Shown piece after piece: positions 15,931-24,834 of a stretch of 64,000 bases of DNA. The notes under the pieces were generated by a model. It saw nothing but the letters and a program-made list of their open reading frames with translations. It was not told the origin of the DNA and made no database searches. Numbering within the stretch: position 1 is the stretch's first letter; every line of letters starts with the position of its first letter. A program made the position numbers and the translations under genes. The stretch comes from an uncultured Spirochaetaceae bacterium. Its GTDB lineage: Bacteria > Spirochaetota > Spirochaetia > Sphaerochaetales > Sphaerochaetaceae. The stretch covers positions 1-64,000 of the forward strand of contig CALXLH010000014.1 of assembly GCA_944389145.1 (NCBI GenBank), written 5' to 3'.

Positions 15931-16968
15931 TCAGCAGAGCAGCCGGTACGGATCAAGCCAGTATTCGTCTCGCGCCTCCAGATAGCGCTCAAGGGGATCG
16001 GAGGGCAATACAATATCCTCATCAGGAAGGCCGAAGGTACGGATCGCGGCTCTCCCGAAGGCTTCCTTCAGCCTTGCCTCGCCGCATCCGGCCTTCCTCA
16101 TCCGGTCAAGGAGGAGAAGCATCCCTGGAAGCCCTGGGATACCGGACGCCCCCTTCTCCTTATCAGCCCTGGTATGCGGCGCATGATCCGACTCCGCCCA
16201 GTCTATCGTCCCATCGAGAAGAGCATTGAACACGGCATCCCTGTCCGCCTCGCTCCTGAGCGGCGGGTTCATCTTCAGCATAAGCGCCTCATTCCTGGCA
16301 TCATCACGGGAAAGGAGGGCATGGTGAGGAGTGGCCCCCATCGTTATATCGAGGTCAGCACGGACTGAGCTGACATACTCTATCGTCGATGCGGCCGAAA
16401 CATGGCAGATATGCAGCCTGCCCTTGAAGCCGGTCTCAAGCGCCAGCGTCACAAGGTCCTTGACGCTCTCGGTCTCAGCCTCAGCCGGACGGGCATCGCA
16501 ATGAGTCTCATAGCGTCCCGGGACATATAGCTCAGGATGAAGCAGCTCCTCCTTCTCGGCATGGACGGCAAGGACTCCCTCGTAAGAGGCATCAGCAAGG
16601 ATCTGGAACACCCTTCTCTGCGGCTCGACTCCTATTATCCCCATATTCCCGGTGCTATGCCCGGCAAACATCTTAAGCCCGACGATAAGAGGGAAAAGCT
16701 CTGAATGGAGGTGTACGGCTTCCCGTATCTGCTCCTCATCATTCGTCAGACCCGCATAGATATGGTACGAGACGCCTGTCTTCTCAGAGGCCTCGCCACC
16801 AAGGGCAAGGCGCTCCAGGAGCAGCGGCCTTGAGGTACAGGCAGGGCTGGTATTCGGCATGTCGAAAAGATGCGTGAATCCAAGGCGCCTCGCGGTTTCC
16901 ATGCCATGAAGCACCGTCTCCTTGTCCTTCTGCTCCCAGTCCCTGAGATGCACATGCGGATCGATCAT
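15931..16968 (-). CDS. pyrC: Dihydroorotase
   Basis: Cyclises carbamoyl aspartate to dihydroorotate, step 3 of UMP synthesis. 345 residues, amidohydrolase fold. The metal-binding HVHLRD is at residues 4-9, FDMPNTSPACTS supplies the substrate Asn region, and AGHSTGNMG, VHAEKEE, CHVSAASTIEYV and SDHAPHTRADKE provide the remaining His/Asp ligands. It is closest in pattern to class I enzymes but short. It overlaps pyrDK by four bases (ATGA) and is the last gene of the operon. Confidence 0.9.
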   Translation of the reverse strand: MIDPHVHLRDWEQKDKETVLHGMETARRLGFTHLFDMPNTSPACTSRPLLLERLALGGEASEKTGVSYHIYAGLTNDEEQIREAVHLHSELFPLIVGLKMFAGHSTGNMGIIGVEPQRRVFQILADASYEGVLAVHAEKEELLHPELYVPGRYETHCDARPAEAETESVKDLVTLALETGFKGRLHICHVSAASTIEYVSSVRADLDITMGATPHHALLSRDDARNEALMLKMNPPLRSEADRDAVFNALLDGTIDWAESDHAPHTRADKEKGASGIPGLPGMLLLLDRMRKAGCGEARLKEAFGRAAIRTFGLPDEDIVLPSDPLERYLEARDEYWLDPYRLLC

Positions 16969-18635
16969 AGCGCTACATCATTCTCCTTGAGCATCTTCCA
17001 AGTGAAGAAGGTCCCCTCCTTGCAGGGCAGATGCCCGCCGCAGACACACTCACCGCACATGCCGATGCCGCACATGGTGTTCTTCTCCATCGAAAGGTAG
17101 ATCCTATCATCAGGGAGCCCCAGTGACTCAGCCTTCCTCGCGGCCCTCTCCATCAGCTTTCCAGGACCTACGACATAAAGTGCGGTATCGCCGGAAAGGT
17201 CATCGGCGGAAAGCGTGTCGACGACACGGCCAGGCTGGCCATCATCGGCAATGGCGCGGAAATCGCCATAGGAGGCAAGCTCATCCTCCAGCGGCTCCTT
17301 GCCGCTGGCAAGCTCCACAACGCCTACGCGGATATCCATCTCAGTACCATCCTTGGAAAGGCGCTCAGCGATAAGAGGAAGGACCGCGGCCCCGGTTCCT
17401 CCGCCGATCAGGACGGCATGCCTAGTCTTCTCATAGACCATCGGGCTGCCATACAGTCCCCTCGTGTAGAGGGTATCCCCTTCGGAGAGCTCAAAAAGCG
17501 CGGAGGTGAATGCGCCTCGCTTCTTTATAAGGAAGGTAAGAGGGGCGTTGACAGCAACGGAAAACGGCTTCTCGCCCTTGCCTGGTATCCAGATGAAGCA
17601 GAACTCGCCCGGCTCGGCATTCGTCTTCCCGTCAAGCGTCAGCACGACGACATCGGATTCGAAGAGCTCCTTCTTCACGATCCTGTGCGGCGTGTACTCA
17701 AGCGCGTTGGTTTTCGAAAGGTAGGCGGAGCTATCCTCCCCGGCCTTGATCGCATGGAGATATGCCTCCCATCTCTGCGGATGGACACGGGACAGGGCCG
17801 ATCCAATTCCGACGCTGTCGGCACCTGCGTCAACCATGCGCCTTGCATCCTCCGCGGAGGAGACGCCTCCCATCCCGAGGATCAGCGGCTCATCACCGAT
17901 CCGCTCACGGATAGCGCGTATCGCCCTTATCGCATCCTCCTTGACCCACTCCCCTGAGGCACCGCCCCTTCCTCCGAGATTGTTGTTGAGGATCGGGGCC
18001 CCGGAATGTGGCTCGATATAGAGATTCGGACCTACCGTGTTGATAGCAGCAACGCCATCGGCGCCGGCCTTTATGACGGCATCTGCGATCGCTGCTATGT
18101 CAGGGACATTCGGAGAAAGCTTCACGATGAGCGGAGCCTTCCTCTCGGGATACGCTGAGACGATTGCCTTGACATACGCTACAGCCGTGTCCTTATCGGT
18201 ACCTATCGATGCGCCGAAGCCAGATGCGGCATGAGGGCATGAGAAATTGAGCTCCAGCATGTCGGCGACGCTATCGAACGCCCTTACCAGGGTGATGAAA
18301 TCATCCGTGTTATTCGCGGCAAGGGAAACATTGAGGATGGCTCTCAGTCCTTCCCCCCTGAGTTCCTTCAGCTCCTTAAGAGCCGTTTCCATGCCCGGAT
18401 TGCGGAGCCCTACCGAATTGCCGAAATCTCCCGTCGAAGGAGAGCACACGACAGGCTCCCTGTTTCCCGGAGTCGGAACGACCTGGAAGCTCTTTGTCGT
18501 GATGATATCAATGCTGGGGATATTCCTATCGAAGAGCCTTATAAGCTCCTTCTTCGTCGAAGCTACCCCTGATACGGTCGCAAGATGCAGCTCCCCACGC
18601 CTATGGCTACCACGAAGGACAGAACGCGCATCCAT
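16965..18635 (-). CDS. pyrDK: Fused dihydroorotate dehydrogenase: PyrD (class 1B) + PyrK
   Basis: One 556-residue chain combines the FMN catalytic subunit and the FAD/2Fe-2S electron-transfer subunit, normally separate. Residues ~1-310 are PyrD-1B: LNFSCPHAASGFGAS contains the catalytic Cys, and FMN-phosphate loops GMGGVSSAEDA and GADSVGIGSAL follow. Residues ~315-556 are PyrK: the FAD/NAD domain has the glycine-rich GGGTGAAVLPLIAERLS, and the four-Cys cluster CGIGMCGECVCGGHLPCKEG is near residue 525. It would use NAD+ as acceptor. ATG 18635 overlaps the pyrF stop (TGATG). The frame is continuous with no linker loss, so fusion rather than sequencing error is favoured. Confidence 0.92.
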   Translation of the reverse strand: MDARSVLRGSHRRGELHLATVSGVASTKKELIRLFDRNIPSIDIITTKSFQVVPTPGNREPVVCSPSTGDFGNSVGLRNPGMETALKELKELRGEGLRAILNVSLAANNTDDFITLVRAFDSVADMLELNFSCPHAASGFGASIGTDKDTAVAYVKAIVSAYPERKAPLIVKLSPNVPDIAAIADAVIKAGADGVAAINTVGPNLYIEPHSGAPILNNNLGGRGGASGEWVKEDAIRAIRAIRERIGDEPLILGMGGVSSAEDARRMVDAGADSVGIGSALSRVHPQRWEAYLHAIKAGEDSSAYLSKTNALEYTPHRIVKKELFESDVVVLTLDGKTNAEPGEFCFIWIPGKGEKPFSVAVNAPLTFLIKKRGAFTSALFELSEGDTLYTRGLYGSPMVYEKTRHAVLIGGGTGAAVLPLIAERLSKDGTEMDIRVGVVELASGKEPLEDELASYGDFRAIADDGQPGRVVDTLSADDLSGDTALYVVGPGKLMERAARKAESLGLPDDRIYLSMEKNTMCGIGMCGECVCGGHLPCKEGTFFTWKMLKENDVAL

Positions 18636-19516
18636 CAGAGCGATGCCTCATCAAGGAGCTTATGGATCGCGCTCATGCACTGATCAAGCCAGTCCTCCGG
18701 AGCCGCGCCCTTCTTCCATGGATGGGTAAGGCCAGATGATGAGTTTATGCGCGAGAGTGCAAGCTCATAGCCGGCTTCATTCATCATGGCGATGACCTCG
18801 CTCGCGCTTCCTCCCTGGCTTCCCACGCCCGGGATGAGCATCGGAACATCCTTGCCGGCATACAGGGCCGCGATCCGGCCAAGCTCATTAGGATTCGTCG
18901 CCCCTACGACCGCTCCTATGCCACGGCGGCCATCGTTCCAGCCGATGATGCGAATGGCCACGGCCTGATAAAGCGGATAGAGCTCCTTCTCATCGACACG
19001 GTCAAGGACAAGCTCATCCTGAAAATCCTTCCCACCGGGATTGGATGTACGGTTGAGGATATACATGCCCTTATCCTCATACGCAAACGGCAGCACGGAA
19101 TCGCTCCCCATGTACGGAGACACAGTGACGGCATCAGCCTTCCAGCAGTCGAAGGCCTCGCGGGCATAGTTCTCGCTCGATTTCGCTATATCGCCACGCT
19201 TGCTGTCGAGTATCACGGGAATCGATGGAAAATACGTCTCAAGCAGCTCCAGCACGTCAACCAGGGCCAGCGAGCCGGAGAAGTCCTCGGCCCTAGGATC
19301 ATCAAGCGACTGATAATACCCTATATTCGGCTTGAATGCCGCCGGAGAGATTCCCTCCAGCCTCATGCGGCGGAAAAGCTCTGAGAAATAAGAGCCGATG
19401 CGCTCACGCACCGGAGCATCCGACTCTGGAAGCACGGACAGCACCGGATCGAGTCCCATGCATACGATATTGCCCGCCTCTCTGGCGCTCTCGCGAAGCC
19501 TGTCTATATAGCTCAT
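18635..19516 (-). CDS. pyrF: Orotidine-5'-phosphate decarboxylase
   Basis: Final step of UMP synthesis (OMP to UMP). 293 residues, the long type 2 family. FKPNIGYYQSL, the catalytic VILDSKRGDIAKSSENYA (Asp-Lys-Asp), TVSPYMGSDSV and LIPGVGSQGGSASEVI are visible. The ATG at 19516 overlaps the pyrE stop by four bases (ATGA), so I reject the upstream in-frame start at 19576. Confidence 0.93.
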   Translation of the reverse strand: MSYIDRLRESAREAGNIVCMGLDPVLSVLPESDAPVRERIGSYFSELFRRMRLEGISPAAFKPNIGYYQSLDDPRAEDFSGSLALVDVLELLETYFPSIPVILDSKRGDIAKSSENYAREAFDCWKADAVTVSPYMGSDSVLPFAYEDKGMYILNRTSNPGGKDFQDELVLDRVDEKELYPLYQAVAIRIIGWNDGRRGIGAVVGATNPNELGRIAALYAGKDVPMLIPGVGSQGGSASEVIAMMNEAGYELALSRINSSSGLTHPWKKGAAPEDWLDQCMSAIHKLLDEASL

Positions 19517-20214
19517 GCCTTGATCTCCCTCGGGAATCCCCTCTTCTCTCCCCAGCCGAACGGATCCTCGCGCCACTGGCGGAGGGCTGCTGCGGACTCG
19601 GATGAGATATAGCCAGTCTCCTCCGCGGTACGCACCATGACATCATATGAGAGGATGGTATGGAACACGCACGGCGGATCCAGGGCTGCGAACGCATCCT
19701 CTGCGGTCTTGAAGCCATATGTGAAGATGGCAAGGCAGAGATCGCACCTGCCGCCTGCAGCCCTCACGGCCTCAACAGCCTTGAGAGACGAGGAGCCGGT
19801 GGAGATGAGATCCTCTATCAGAAGGACGTTCTTCCCCTCGTATGATCCGCTCTGGCCCAGCCCCTCTATCTGATGGCCAAGCCCATGGTCCTTCGATGAG
19901 GAACGGACATAAGAAAGCGGCTTATACAGCATATCGGCAAGGCTTGTCGCATGAGGGATGCCGGCAGTAGCCGTACCTGCGATGTTATCAGCCTGCACGC
20001 CGAGCGAATCGATGATGTCTGCAAAGGCATCACGTATCAGGGCCCTGTACTTAGGCTCCGCCAGGAACTGCCTGTTATCATTATAGATCGGCATGCGATA
20101 GCCGGAGACCCATGTAAACGGATTCTCCGGAGACAGCCTTATGGCACCAAGCTCAAATGCGCCCTTAGCAAGTATAGGGCCATAGTATTCAGTGATCTCT
20201 TCTAGCTTCTTCAT
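19513..20214 (-). CDS. pyrE: Orotate phosphoribosyltransferase
   Basis: Adds PRPP-derived ribose phosphate to orotate. 233 residues. The PRPP loop is VLLIEDLISTGSSSLKAVEAV (about residues 130-150), with GTATAGIPHATSLADML upstream. Start 20214 (MKKLEEITEYYG) has GAGG six bases upstream; an in-frame TTG four codons earlier is less likely. It follows pyrBI by 25 bases. Confidence 0.93.
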   Translation of the reverse strand: MKKLEEITEYYGPILAKGAFELGAIRLSPENPFTWVSGYRMPIYNDNRQFLAEPKYRALIRDAFADIIDSLGVQADNIAGTATAGIPHATSLADMLYKPLSYVRSSSKDHGLGHQIEGLGQSGSYEGKNVLLIEDLISTGSSSLKAVEAVRAAGGRCDLCLAIFTYGFKTAEDAFAALDPPCVFHTILSYDVMVRTAEETGYISSESAAALRQWREDPFGWGEKRGFPREIKA

Positions 20215-20239
20215 ATTCAACCTCAATCATACCATCGAA

Positions 20240-21826
20240 TCAGTGCTTTTTCCAAATTTCCTTGAAGGAATGGAACCTGCCGCAGTAGGCACAGGCGAAA
20301 TGCCCGTCAGGTGTCCTGTAGAACGATGCAGGGACTCCCTCTCCATTGACTGGGTTGGAGATGCAGGCCTCGTTCTGGCATGACAGATCATCGAAGTTAT
20401 AGATGCGCGGAGGCATGTGCGTCCTGTACTTCTCCACGACGCGGCCATCCTTGATGATGTTGAGCGTGCAGTGCGGAGCCACGGCGGCAAGGCGCTTGAG
20501 ATCCCTTCTCTCAAGCTTCCTGGCACCTGGGCGGAATATTATGCCCTTGTACCTGCCATCAGATCCTGTGGATATCCATTCGCCGCCCTTGCCATCATCA
20601 AGTCCGAGGACAGAGGAGATAAGGCGCATATGGGAACGGATCTCGCCAGGCTCATCGCCCTTGCAGATGTGGTCTATCACTATGCCGTCAGAGATCGGGC
20701 GCACGCCTTCAGAGTAGTTCTTATCCTTCTTGCTGCCGCTCGGCTCAACCTGGATTATGTACTCCTCGGTCCTCAGATCCGACTCATGCTCGCCAGGAAC
20801 AGGCACGTAATCATCACCGATCCTGCCGGCAATCAGCGAAAGGAGTACCATGCGGCAGTACATGCCATTGATGGCCTGCCTCTCCCATCCATTGAGGCTC
20901 GTCTTATCAAGCCACGTGGGAATCGTCGGATGCTCCTTATGGCGAGGAAGAGGATGATAGAACTTGGTATCTGGAAGGAGATACGGCAGGAAGTCCTTAC
21001 GGAACGTGATTGCCTCCCTTAGGATATCCTGCTTCTGGAGTATCCTCTCGCCCATCCTCTCAAGCTGCGGGCGCGTGAAGTACCAGAGCCTTGCGATCTT
21101 ACCTCCCTTGAGATACTCCTCGATCGATGGATAGAGGGAGACCTCAAAGCCATTCTCCCTCATCTTCTCGATATAGCTTTCCGGCATCATAAGCTCATCC
21201 GGAGCTATCAGATCGACCTTTACGTGGTTGAATATCTTGAGCCCATCTGCCTTGGAGTGGACGGTCCGGCCATGATAGAGATCCCCGACAAGGGCGACAT
21301 GGATGCTGTCGAAGGACATATCAAGATCCTCCAGGAACGAGAACTCATCAAGGAGCTCCTGCGTCGGATGCTCATGCTTTCCGTCCCCGGCATTGATGAA
21401 CGCAGGACGATACGGCAGGCCGTTGCGCTCAGCGTACTCGGAACATTCCTCCGAAAGCCACTTCGTCAGGCCCTCCACGCGGCTGCGGACGATGAAGATC
21501 GAATTGCTGTATCCCGAGAGCATGTTGAATGTATCCGCATAGCTCTCTCCCTTGTTTATGGATGAAGATGAGGACATCAGCTCAGATACCTTGGCATGAT
21601 GGAACTTGGCGGCATTGCGGAACGATTCCTTTGTCCTCGTGCTGTCCTCCAGGAACACCTCATAGATCCCGAAATCCGGATCATTGATGCGGAAGGCATC
21701 CATCGTCTTCTCATCACCGGCAAGGATCGCCTTCTTCAGCTCATAGACCTTCTTGAAGAAATACCGCCTCTCATTGATCGAGAAATCCTCGATGACGCAG
21801 AGAGATCTTGAGGCAAAAACGTTCAT
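20240..21826 (-). CDS. pyrBI: Fused aspartate carbamoyltransferase catalytic + regulatory chain (PyrB-PyrI)
   Basis: Commits carbamoyl phosphate and aspartate to pyrimidine synthesis. 528 residues. The ATCase part (to ~360) has the carbamoyl-phosphate loop FLEDSTRTKESF, followed by HPTQELLDEFS and FYHPLPRH. After a linker, residues ~385-528 match PyrI: an effector-binding domain, then a zinc ribbon with CQNEAC and CAYC. The fusion would keep both chains stoichiometric and suggests nucleotide feedback control. AGGAGG lies 6 bases before the ATG, inside the last codons of the leader ORF. PyrB-PyrI fusions are known in Thermotoga and some treponemes. Confidence 0.93.
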   Translation of the reverse strand: MNVFASRSLCVIEDFSINERRYFFKKVYELKKAILAGDEKTMDAFRINDPDFGIYEVFLEDSTRTKESFRNAAKFHHAKVSELMSSSSSINKGESYADTFNMLSGYSNSIFIVRSRVEGLTKWLSEECSEYAERNGLPYRPAFINAGDGKHEHPTQELLDEFSFLEDLDMSFDSIHVALVGDLYHGRTVHSKADGLKIFNHVKVDLIAPDELMMPESYIEKMRENGFEVSLYPSIEEYLKGGKIARLWYFTRPQLERMGERILQKQDILREAITFRKDFLPYLLPDTKFYHPLPRHKEHPTIPTWLDKTSLNGWERQAINGMYCRMVLLSLIAGRIGDDYVPVPGEHESDLRTEEYIIQVEPSGSKKDKNYSEGVRPISDGIVIDHICKGDEPGEIRSHMRLISSVLGLDDGKGGEWISTGSDGRYKGIIFRPGARKLERRDLKRLAAVAPHCTLNIIKDGRVVEKYRTHMPPRIYNFDDLSCQNEACISNPVNGEGVPASFYRTPDGHFACAYCGRFHSFKEIWKKH

Positions 21827-21940
21827 CTACATCCTCCTGACATGAAAAAAGCCGGATAATACCCGGCAAGAACCAACTAAAGTGAAACACTTAAGCCCGA
21901 ACCTTCCATCCGCTACTGAAATAGCTAGCTGACCGGTCAT
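21827..21940 (-). CDS. pyrL: pyr operon leader peptide (pyrL-like)
   Basis: 37-codon ORF with an excellent AGGAGG five bases before its ATG. It is translated through the intrinsic terminator at 21845-21868 and stops with TAG immediately before the pyrBI ATG; its codons 35-36 (AGG AGG) are the pyrBI ribosome site. Upstream of the terminator the mRNA is U-rich with a small AAGUG/CACUU hairpin, a possible polymerase pause site. This is the layout of E. coli pyrL, where low UTP slows polymerase, the ribosome catches up and blocks the terminator. The function is inferred from layout; the peptide itself is not homologous. Confidence 0.75.
   Translation of the reverse strand: MTGQLAISVADGRFGLKCFTLVGSCRVLSGFFHVRRM
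21845..21868 (-). terminator. pyr operon attenuator (intrinsic terminator)
   Basis: On the - strand: GCCGGG - UAUUA - UCCGGC (six pairs including one G-U) followed by UUUUUU, ending 18 bases before pyrBI. It lies wholly within the leader ORF. Confidence 0.8.
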
Positions 21941-21958
21941 CCGAGCCTCCTGCGGGAG

Positions 21959-21991
21959 AGGATATCAGAAGCGATTTGCTATGTCCATAGC
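21959..21991 (-). promoter_or_regulatory. pyr operon promoter with overlapping inverted repeat
   Basis: TGGACA - 17 bp - TATCCT, placing the transcription start just before the leader AGGAGG. The inverted repeat GCTATG-TC-CATAGC (21978-21991) covers the -35 and could be an operator. A second possible promoter, TTGTAA - 17 - TATAGG, lies about 65 bp upstream beside the palindrome GATCA-CCAA-TGATC (22029-22042). Confidence 0.5.
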
Positions 21992-22197
21992 CCTTCGGTT
22001 CTTTATGGAAAGCCTTGATTTCCTATAATGATCACCAATGATCTTTACAAAGAAGCACCATTTCCCATAAGGATTATTCCTCTACCTTCAATGAATCAGC
22101 ATCCGAATCAGCAGGAAGCCTCATCATGCTCATATTCACATAATAGCTCTCCCGTCCCAGACGGATCTTATCAAGAAGCATATCCGGGACATCAAAA

Positions 22198-23190
22198 TCA
22201 TAAGAAACCTAAAACCTCATTCCACACGCTTTCGATTATCGGAATCCCTAATTCCTCATTTTCACGTCTAGTCTGCCACATCCTTTCGCCGGGATAATGC
22301 ACACCGGAATCCGATTCATCTATATCATCCAATATCGTTGCGGTAATATGATCTATATGCTCTTTTGAGTTCAGCCTGCAAGGATCAATTACGATCATTA
22401 CCTGCGTCAATCCCTTTTCATTACCCAATCTGCCTACTTCAGTTACTGAATTACCATCTGAAAGAATCGTAGCAACCAAATCCAATGCGATAGATAAACC
22501 ACTGCCTTTCCAATACCCGATAGGTAGCAATCTTCCATTCTTTTCAATAACCGCCGGATCAGTCGTCAATTCATCATTGTTGTCAAATCCCCCATAGAAA
22601 GGAAGCTGCACCCCTTTTAGCCTACACTCCTCTAGCTTCCCGTAGGAAAACTGGGAAAGAGCGGAATCAAATACAAAATGACGGCCATCGCTTCGAGGAA
22701 CGGAGATTATCAATGGATTATTTCCTATATTAGGCTTCTTACCGCCCCATACAGGCATATTAGGCATCGTATTAGACCAACATATTCCGACAAAGCCATT
22801 TTCAGCAGCCTGTAGACCATACGTCCCGCCTCGCAACCAATGATTATTGTGTCTTAAAGCGACAAGCCCGATTCCATATTGTGATGCTAATTCAATGGCT
22901 CGCCTCATGCACTTGAAAGCATTTATAGCCCCTATGCCATAATGACCATCCCAACATTCCATAGAACCAGCAGCGGAGGTTAGCGTTACCTCCACAGACG
23001 CATCTATCACTCCGCTTTCCAGATTCGACACAATTCGAGGAAACCGATTTATTCCATGCGTGTATACGCCATCCAGGCTGTTATTGGCAATTATTCCTGA
23101 AAGGATTTCTGCGTCATCGGCATCAACTTTTCTCATTTCAAGTATACGTTTTACAGTACACTTAATCTCATCAAAGGATATTCTGATCAC
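22198..23190 (-). CDS. 2,3-diketo-L-gulonate reductase family oxidoreductase (YiaK-like)
   Basis: NAD(P)H-dependent reductase of the malate/L-lactate dehydrogenase-2 family. 330 residues aligning by eye along the whole length with E. coli YiaK/DlgD: DGVYTHGINRFPR (with the catalytic His, near residue 44), MECWDGHYGIG, LVALRHNNHWLRGGTYGLQAAE, WGGKKPNIGNNPL and GYWKGSGLSIALDL. The substrate is probably a 2-keto or 2,3-diketo sugar acid; the exact one is not readable. It is the last gene of the ABC-transporter operon, 9 bases after the hydrolase-like gene. Confidence 0.88.
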   Translation of the reverse strand: MIRISFDEIKCTVKRILEMRKVDADDAEILSGIIANNSLDGVYTHGINRFPRIVSNLESGVIDASVEVTLTSAAGSMECWDGHYGIGAINAFKCMRRAIELASQYGIGLVALRHNNHWLRGGTYGLQAAENGFVGICWSNTMPNMPVWGGKKPNIGNNPLIISVPRSDGRHFVFDSALSQFSYGKLEECRLKGVQLPFYGGFDNNDELTTDPAVIEKNGRLLPIGYWKGSGLSIALDLVATILSDGNSVTEVGRLGNEKGLTQVMIVIDPCRLNSKEHIDHITATILDDIDESDSGVHYPGERMWQTRRENEELGIPIIESVWNEVLGFL

Positions 23191-23199
23191 GTTTTTCTC

Positions 23200-24834
23200 C
23201 TACTCATCGATTGGACCTGGATAATCTGGACTTCCAGCGGCGACGAATCCATTACTATGACCTGCTAGATCATCCGAGATCCAGAAGGAATACAGATCAG
23301 AAGAATCCATGATGAATCTGAACCTGACCGTCTTACCCTTTATGCTAGATAAGGATGCACCACCATCCCATGTCACAGCAGTCTTAACCGAATCGTTTTC
23401 TATAGGCTTGCATTCTTCTTTGGAATATCCAGGGAGAACATTACCGGCCTCATCCAGCACCTCAACTTTGATACATCCCTTGGATGCATCGCAATTCATG
23501 AAAAGGAAAGAACCGGAGAATCTCAATGGCTTTGTCAGAAGATATCCATCCTGATCAGAATGCATTGAGGCAAATCCATCTCTACGTAATTCTGCAATTC
23601 CCACAGAAGCCCCAGCATACATAGCATTCCGATACCTTCCGGATTGGCCCATCTGATTGCCAGATAGATTCGGAGAGATCCCGGAAAACCCCGTCACATA
23701 GAACCGTATCTTATCCTCAAAGACCAGACAAACACCACCAGAAGCATGCAAATACCCCTTATTCCACGTTCCGGGGATTCTGGAAGCAGCTAAGAACGGA
23801 GTCCTATCAGGACGAGTGAAGTTGAATCCATCCCTGCTGAACCCAATTTCCAAGTCAATGGTCTTAGGTATGCCCTTTTCCTGACAAATATGATTCTCCG
23901 GTCCTCTGAAGATTCCAAACAAACCAATCATTACGCTCTCATATGCAACAACATTAACATCATATAATGCAACATTATGATCAGGAATCGCTGGATCAGG
24001 AAGATCCTTTGGATCGGTAGTTTGCCAAAGTACTTCATCATTTGAATCCCACGCAGCGCCATGCAGGAAATCAGCATCTTCCTTATAATATCGCTTCCTT
24101 ATCCCTACAGGCATCTCTTCGGCAAGTCTACCAGTCGTGGGGGCATTACGGCGAATGCTCATACACCACTTCTTCCGGAATGGATTGTAGAAGAAACAGG
24201 AATTATCACCTACCGGATCAGTAACCACGGGACCATCCCAATGGATACCATCAGCAGATATATAAAGGCCCCCCTCCTCCAGGTCCCTGCCATCCGCTCC
24301 TCTTAACCTAAAGAACTGGAACATCTTGTATCGTTCCTTTTCATTGGTCGCAAAATCATCGATCCAAATCAAGGCACCATCACGCTCATAGCCTTTTCTC
24401 TTCTTGAAAACGAGATTAGTTCCAGGAACCACGTCGAATAAATGACGCACCCAATGAATACCATCATCACTTTCAGCCAAGGCAGTGGTATGCATCCAAC
24501 CGGGCATGTACCACATACGGAATTTTCGCGTCTTCTGATCAAACCATACTCCATCATTGAAAGGAGCAGCCATCGGACAATCTCCGTTATCCAGTTCTTC
24601 TTCAGTCTCAGGGAATAGGACCGGGTTATCCTTGAACCATTCAGGATGATGGAAAACCCTTCTGCAATCCGTGTCTTCTATAAGGAAATCATCGAAGAAT
24701 AACTGACGGCCGACATCAACTGGTATGACATCAGCGACCTTCCCGCTAAATGCTCGATCAGCAGAAACTGAAGATGAATCATAAGTGAACGTACCATCGT
24801 CAATCTCTATTCCGTTATACAGTCTTTCCTTCAT
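23200..24834 (-). CDS. Beta-propeller glycoside hydrolase-like protein
   Basis: 544 residues. After ~35 residues, VDVGRQLFFDDFLIEDTD begins a five-bladed propeller with repeated W(F/Y)DQKTRKFRMWYMP, DGIHWVRHLF, YKMFQFF and DGIHWDGPV strands, as in GH32/GH43-like and related uncharacterised families. Residues ~430-544 look like a beta-sandwich (jelly-roll) domain. No signal peptide, so it would act in the cytoplasm on imported sugar. The CAZy family and substrate are not assigned. ATG 24834 overlaps the permease stop (ATGA). No frameshift is seen. Confidence 0.6.
   Translation of the reverse strand: MKERLYNGIEIDDGTFTYDSSSVSADRAFSGKVADVIPVDVGRQLFFDDFLIEDTDCRRVFHHPEWFKDNPVLFPETEEELDNGDCPMAAPFNDGVWFDQKTRKFRMWYMPGWMHTTALAESDDGIHWVRHLFDVVPGTNLVFKKRKGYERDGALIWIDDFATNEKERYKMFQFFRLRGADGRDLEEGGLYISADGIHWDGPVVTDPVGDNSCFFYNPFRKKWCMSIRRNAPTTGRLAEEMPVGIRKRYYKEDADFLHGAAWDSNDEVLWQTTDPKDLPDPAIPDHNVALYDVNVVAYESVMIGLFGIFRGPENHICQEKGIPKTIDLEIGFSRDGFNFTRPDRTPFLAASRIPGTWNKGYLHASGGVCLVFEDKIRFYVTGFSGISPNLSGNQMGQSGRYRNAMYAGASVGIAELRRDGFASMHSDQDGYLLTKPLRFSGSFLFMNCDASKGCIKVEVLDEAGNVLPGYSKEECKPIENDSVKTAVTWDGGASLSSIKGKTVRFRFIMDSSDLYSFWISDDLAGHSNGFVAAGSPDYPGPIDE

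Follow-up and report, generated by a model that had tools for sequence, protein, structure and literature searches.

The pyrBI-E-F-D(K) operon in a 64,000-nucleotide stretch of DNA (the window) from an Ornithospirochaeta-like spirochaete (Sphaerochaetaceae) is very probably under the control of a pyrL-type transcription attenuator that works by ribosome coupling. Comparison with relatives shows selection on an open frame that leads up to the terminator hairpin, without selection on the encoded peptide. Judged from its layout, the leader is pyrL-like by mechanism, without detectable sequence homology to pyrL. The preliminary description of this DNA had already read the region as pyrL-like coupling, and this reading passed all the comparative tests run (open frame, no conserved peptide, no antiterminator).

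Organisation of the leader

The whole unit, namely promoter, leader, hairpin and pyrBI, reads on the minus strand. A consensus scan places a sigma70-type promoter at 21959–21987, with a -35 box TGGACA (21987-21982), a 17-nt spacer and an extended -10 element TGATATCCT, the hexamer of which, TATCCT, occupies 21964-21959. This TRGACA-N17/18-TATYCT layout recurs in relatives, at an equal distance upstream of the leader ATG. From the -10 box, transcription is predicted to start 6-8 nt downstream, at 21951–21953, which would place the leader Shine-Dalgarno sequence at the extreme 5' end of the RNA. The latter sequence, AGGAGG (21946–21951), begins about 7 nt past the promoter and is separated by 5 nt from an ATG at 21940, the predicted start codon of a 37-codon pyrL-like leader ORF (21827–21940; translation MTGQLAISVADGRFGLKCFTLVGSCRVLSGFFHVRRM, followed by the stop).

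The leader passes through an intrinsic terminator, the putative attenuator (21845–21867; -9.4 kcal/mol), which consists of a 7-bp stem, GCCGGGT-ATT-ATCCGGC, followed by U6. The hairpin itself, GCCGGGTATTATCCGGC, spans 21867-21851, and TTTTTT comes next. Just upstream lies a U-rich stretch (21868–21890; 13 U of 23 nt, with no long U run), a candidate UTP-sensitive pause region. The leader stop TAG (21829-21827) directly abuts the pyrBI ATG (21826-21824), with 0 nt between them, and the pyrBI Shine-Dalgarno sequence AGGAGG (21833–21838) falls within leader codons 35-36. The preliminary description had claimed a 37-codon ORF with AGGAGG reading through a terminator, a stop immediately before pyrBI, a pyrBI ribosome site inside the last leader codons and a U-rich upstream RNA, and sequence and translation agree with it on each point.

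Taken alone, the window is unremarkable. The leader frame stays open to the hairpin in 28% of shuffles, the leader folds with ordinary stability (z -0.45), and scans of the window for terminators and promoters returned sites no more numerous than in shuffles. As the window by itself does no better than chance, the significance of the arrangement comes from its conservation in relatives.

Conservation among relatives

Of 139 genomes in the family, 136 yielded a PyrBI relative, a minority of these being weak matches to other carbamoyltransferases. The 118 loci examined comprise about 107 true family pyrBI upstream regions, five loci from the same class, five from Clostridia and that of E. coli, the relatives being Ca. 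Ornithospirochaeta and other Sphaerochaetaceae MAGs. A terminator stands directly before pyrBI in 114 of the 118 loci, with a sequence that varies widely (GCCGG.., ATACCGG.., AATCCC..); in one clostridial locus, L171, the T-run behind the hairpin is interrupted, and the hairpin fell short of the automatic threshold. A promoter lies upstream of the terminator at a conserved distance, so that the terminator must be passed. Beyond the family, many spirochaete pyrBI genes lack such a region altogether. A separate feature of the sample is that one in-frame stop (TAG, TGA or TAA) was reported inside the aligned PyrBI match in eight cases (G122, G123, G020, G133, G087, G419, G449 and G486), for which an alignment-end effect, an assembly error, decay and recoding were not distinguished.

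For the open-frame test, leader starts were picked from the Shine-Dalgarno sequence, blind to stops, and a leader was called open if its frame extended to within 10 nt of the hairpin. By this rule, 77 of 83 leaders are open, against 22.7 expected from shuffling (P = 3e-38). After thinning of the 83 to 42 leaders less than 70% identical, 37 remain open compared with 11.0 expected (P about 5e-18), whereas in the +1 and +2 control frames, of equal composition, no more than 10 and 12 of the 42 are open. A second rule, based on the promoter plus either a Shine-Dalgarno sequence or a promoter-proximal ATG, found 100 of 104 leaders open. Under the automatic rule, 10 of 114 loci received no assigned leader and four were called closed; at least two of these four calls (L202 and L203) look like wrong start picks, both being open by the Shine-Dalgarno-based rule. 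E. coli pyrL, run through the same pipeline, passes the stop-blind test with 44 aa and a stop 3 nt before pyrB.

The stops themselves gather around the hairpin. Positions -8 to +16 hold the stop in 69% of the thinned leaders, versus 11% in shuffles, and stops are enriched immediately before the hairpin (17 of 35, against 5.2 expected). The bases preceding the hairpin are also distinctive: U makes up 45% of the last 30 nt, compared with 28% earlier in the leader, and is higher there in 33 of 37 thinned leaders.

What the frame encodes appears to be free to change. In close pairs, changes fall equally on codon positions 1, 2 and 3 (36, 36 and 35), with a mild excess of synonymous changes (32% vs 22%). 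The leader peptide matched no Pfam family at E-values up to 10, the pyrBI leader-peptide family included; a conserved leader peptide is thus ruled out by the equal change at codon positions and the lack of a Pfam match. No amino acid was found to be enriched in frame, Phe accounting for 15% in frame versus 14% and 22% in the other frames. The distance from ATG to hairpin takes all three values modulo 3 (41, 32 and 27 loci), and even the four closest genomes differ in it (73, 75, 75 and 74 nt). Conservation of the leader frame in relatives, which the preliminary description had proposed as a check, therefore holds for openness up to the hairpin and fails for a fixed frame through it. A search for a competing antiterminator, in the form of a conserved complement to the 5' arm of the hairpin, found none (mean z -0.41; 1 of 42 below 0.05). 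With neither peptide nor frame conserved, and no antiterminator found, selection appears to act on translation up to the hairpin, as in the pyrL mechanism, rather than on a peptide or an RNA switch.

Forms of the leader

Most relatives keep Shine-Dalgarno-led leaders, and the dedicated leader measures about 13-54 codons. Leaving E. coli aside, reading past the hairpin, as in the window, occurs at 22 loci (19 of them Shine-Dalgarno-led) and often ends at or overlaps the pyrBI start; in the window clade, the leader stop ends at 0, +4, -5 and +4 relative to that start. At 53 other loci the stop lies in the 13 nt directly upstream of the hairpin; at 24 it falls inside the stem or loop (E. coli again aside), the majority-form stops lying about 35-50 nt before pyrBI. 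The description of a leader that reads through its terminator thus fits the window and its clade, but not most relatives, which stop just before the hairpin or inside it. In E. coli, termination at an intrinsic terminator falls from about 90% to under 10% when a stop codon lies 5 bp ahead of it, and is maximal once the distance exceeds 27 nt (PMC4824070). Since a ribosome that stops so close leaves hardly any termination, the stop-before, stop-inside and read-through forms may be regarded as equivalent.

A different way of starting translation is predicted for 16 loci, in which the automatic rule puts the ATG 7-11 nt downstream of the -10 box, any Shine-Dalgarno sequence being weak at best. 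These loci are predicted to give leaderless mRNAs, a mode of initiation that certain genera seem to use. Promoters of the form TTGnnn-N17/18-TAGATT are common to the clearest cases. Among the 16, a few may instead be miscalled Shine-Dalgarno-led starts, for example L206 and L052, both of which the Shine-Dalgarno-based rule reads as weakly Shine-Dalgarno-led. Predicted leaderless ORFs with the ATG 7-10 nt after a TAGATT or TAAATT -10 box and the stop at or near the hairpin were noted at L066, L072, L078, L081, L091, L094, L095, L100 and L185.

PyrR and the clostridial loci

In agreement with the preliminary description, which had seen no PyrR-binding loop and had asked for pyrR to be absent from the genome, the leader has no match to the PyrR RNA element of Rfam, either at the gathering level or at E-values up to 10, and the window genome has no PyrR above cut-off (best score 21.6 bits, versus a cut-off of 138), its phosphoribosyltransferase-domain matches being below that cut-off. 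The absence of PyrR is, however, not diagnostic, because five spirochaete relatives and five Clostridia possess both PyrR and such a leader. In the five related spirochaete genomes, PyrR is accompanied by a leaderless-type ORF before the hairpin, in a leader that by eye is less U-rich; none of the 19 other spirochaete genomes checked has PyrR over cut-off.

The five Clostridia (L167-L171) combine a fused pyrBI, a leader with hairpin and PyrR. In the PyrBI tree, their proteins nest inside the Sphaerochaetaceae in a well-supported clade, which, together with the leader and its hairpin, points to an apparent horizontal transfer of pyrBI along with its control region. Within the order of L167, a fused pyrBI was found only in L167's own genome among 151.

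Proposed mechanism and alternatives

In the mechanism that we favour, a ribosome would load on the leader AGGAGG-AUG, at the nascent RNA's 5' end. With UTP in short supply, RNA polymerase would pause within the U-rich stretch that immediately precedes the terminator, allowing the translating ribosome to close up and cover the 5' arm of the hairpin; termination would be suppressed and pyrBI transcribed. When UTP is plentiful, the polymerase would not wait, the hairpin would form ahead of the ribosome and transcription would stop. In the window clade, the ribosome would pass the hairpin and stop next to the pyrBI ATG, so that translation of the two frames could be coupled; the ribosome of most relatives would stop at the hairpin, with an equal blocking effect. 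We infer the transcription start, the pausing, the UTP dependence and termination by the hairpin in vivo. For pyrL, coupling over the leader has been found necessary to prevent termination (PMC5021804).

The most serious competitor, which we consider unlikely though not negligible, accepts that the leader is translated and the terminator suppressed, and supposes either that the signal is general translation capacity or coupling rather than UTP, or that the ORF mainly boosts pyrBI by reinitiation. The window-clade leader stop does overlap or abut the pyrBI ATG, there is a general proposal that leader genes allow reinitiation (PMC4833913), and UTP dependence is a part of the model that we infer. 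However, most relatives have their stops too far from pyrBI to be tightly coupled to it, the RNA directly ahead of the hairpin stays U-rich, and the operon under control is one of pyrimidine synthesis. Much less probable is a trp-like attenuator specific for an amino acid, or a nascent-peptide arrest, governing the terminator. Such attenuators usually consist of a short translated leader ahead of a terminator, but here no peptide is conserved, codon positions change equally, no amino acid is enriched in frame, no competing antiterminator was found and close relatives differ in their frame at the hairpin. Amino-acid-specific attenuation was rejected for the lack of any in-frame codon bias.

Two further readings deserve even less credence. 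Control by the RNA-binding protein PyrR, with the ORF incidental, could draw on the true PyrR of five spirochaete relatives and of the five Clostridia carrying the cassette; against it stand a window genome with no PyrR above cut-off, a leader free of the Rfam PyrR element and the selection on the openness of the ORF, so that the sequence already contradicts it and its chance of being right is minute. It would be just as surprising if a chance ORF merely preceded an ordinary terminator whose role is to insulate the operon from transcription arriving from upstream. Within the window, the 28% of shuffles with an open frame would be compatible with such an accident; yet 37 of the 42 thinned relatives are open where 11.0 were expected, the other frames stay at chance level, and polymerase has to pass the terminator, given a promoter placed upstream of it at a conserved distance. 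On the statistics, this reading is refuted.

Comparison with known systems

Control of the pyrL type has been worked out in enteric bacteria, and the window leader, as read from its organisation, is a pyrL-type attenuator outside this group. Like E. coli pyrBI, it has a short Shine-Dalgarno-led ORF close behind the start, a U-containing stretch, an intrinsic terminator and the same target genes, and, like E. coli pyrL, it crosses the hairpin and stops next to the structural gene (3 nt before pyrB in E. coli, 0 nt in the window). On the other hand, PyrB and PyrI are fused in the window, and the leader peptide has no Pfam match, so that the likeness is one of mechanism. The E. coli pyrBI start site has an AATTTG run tied to reiterative initiation, whereas the predicted start of the window, CGCAGGAGG, has no U run.

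The majority form of the relatives, whose stops fall in the final 13 nt ahead of the hairpin, resembles instead the E. coli rph-pyrE attenuator, in which the ribosome terminates just before the hairpin. In that system a complete gene, rph, provides the upstream frame, whereas the relatives use a dedicated short leader. The PyrR-controlled pyr leaders of Firmicutes share terminator-based attenuation of pyr operons with the window; they require PyrR and an anti-antiterminator binding loop, and need no translated leader, whereas neither PyrR nor its binding loop was found for the window leader. As regards attenuation of pyr genes in spirochaetes, nothing relevant was found in the open-access literature, most subscription papers lying outside that scope.

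A broader picture, to which we would give about even chances, is that spirochaetes harbour an old family of pyrBI attenuators that sense UTP and evolve fast, selection acting only on translatability to the hairpin. This family would include a leaderless subclass, with ribosome loading at the RNA's 5' end, and the cassette with its attenuator would have moved into gut Clostridia that kept PyrR, giving two pyr controls per cell. The same logic in spirochaetes, and a presumably functional unit in Clostridia, suggest a coupling of transcription and translation tight enough for the ribosome to police a terminator that lies no more than about 100 nt from the start. The roughly 100 natural variants, with stops before, inside or beyond the hairpin and with Shine-Dalgarno-led or leaderless starts, form a test set for the ribosome distance needed to block a terminator.

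Genes of the operon and neighbouring frames

The first gene, pyrBI (20240–21826, minus strand, as are all the following), encodes the fused catalytic and regulatory chains of aspartate carbamoyltransferase in 528 aa, with the Pfam domains OTCace_N, OTCace, PyrI and PyrI_C and a match to the fused PyrB-PyrI model NF009916 (808 bits vs a cut-off of 800). It is followed by pyrE (19513–20226; orotate phosphoribosyltransferase, TIGR00336 above cut-off), pyrF (18635–19576; orotidine-5'-phosphate decarboxylase, TIGR02127 above cut-off) and an apparent pyrD-pyrK fusion of 556 aa (16965–18635). The latter carries DHO_dh at residues 22-283, and its C-terminal PyrK-like domain (328-551) matches the DHODB electron-transfer-subunit model below the cut-off of that model.

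For carA of the same genome, no similar leader was evident by eye in the 320 nt inspected upstream. At 23200-24834 (minus strand), a 544-aa protein with no Pfam or NCBIfam match adjoins an ABC sugar-transport operon. Between the Ldh_2 gene and the pyr promoter, the frame FDVPDMLLDKIRLGRESYYVNMSMMRLPADSDADSLKVEE (22071-22215, minus strand) looks by eye like a gene remnant or a gene tail without an intact start.
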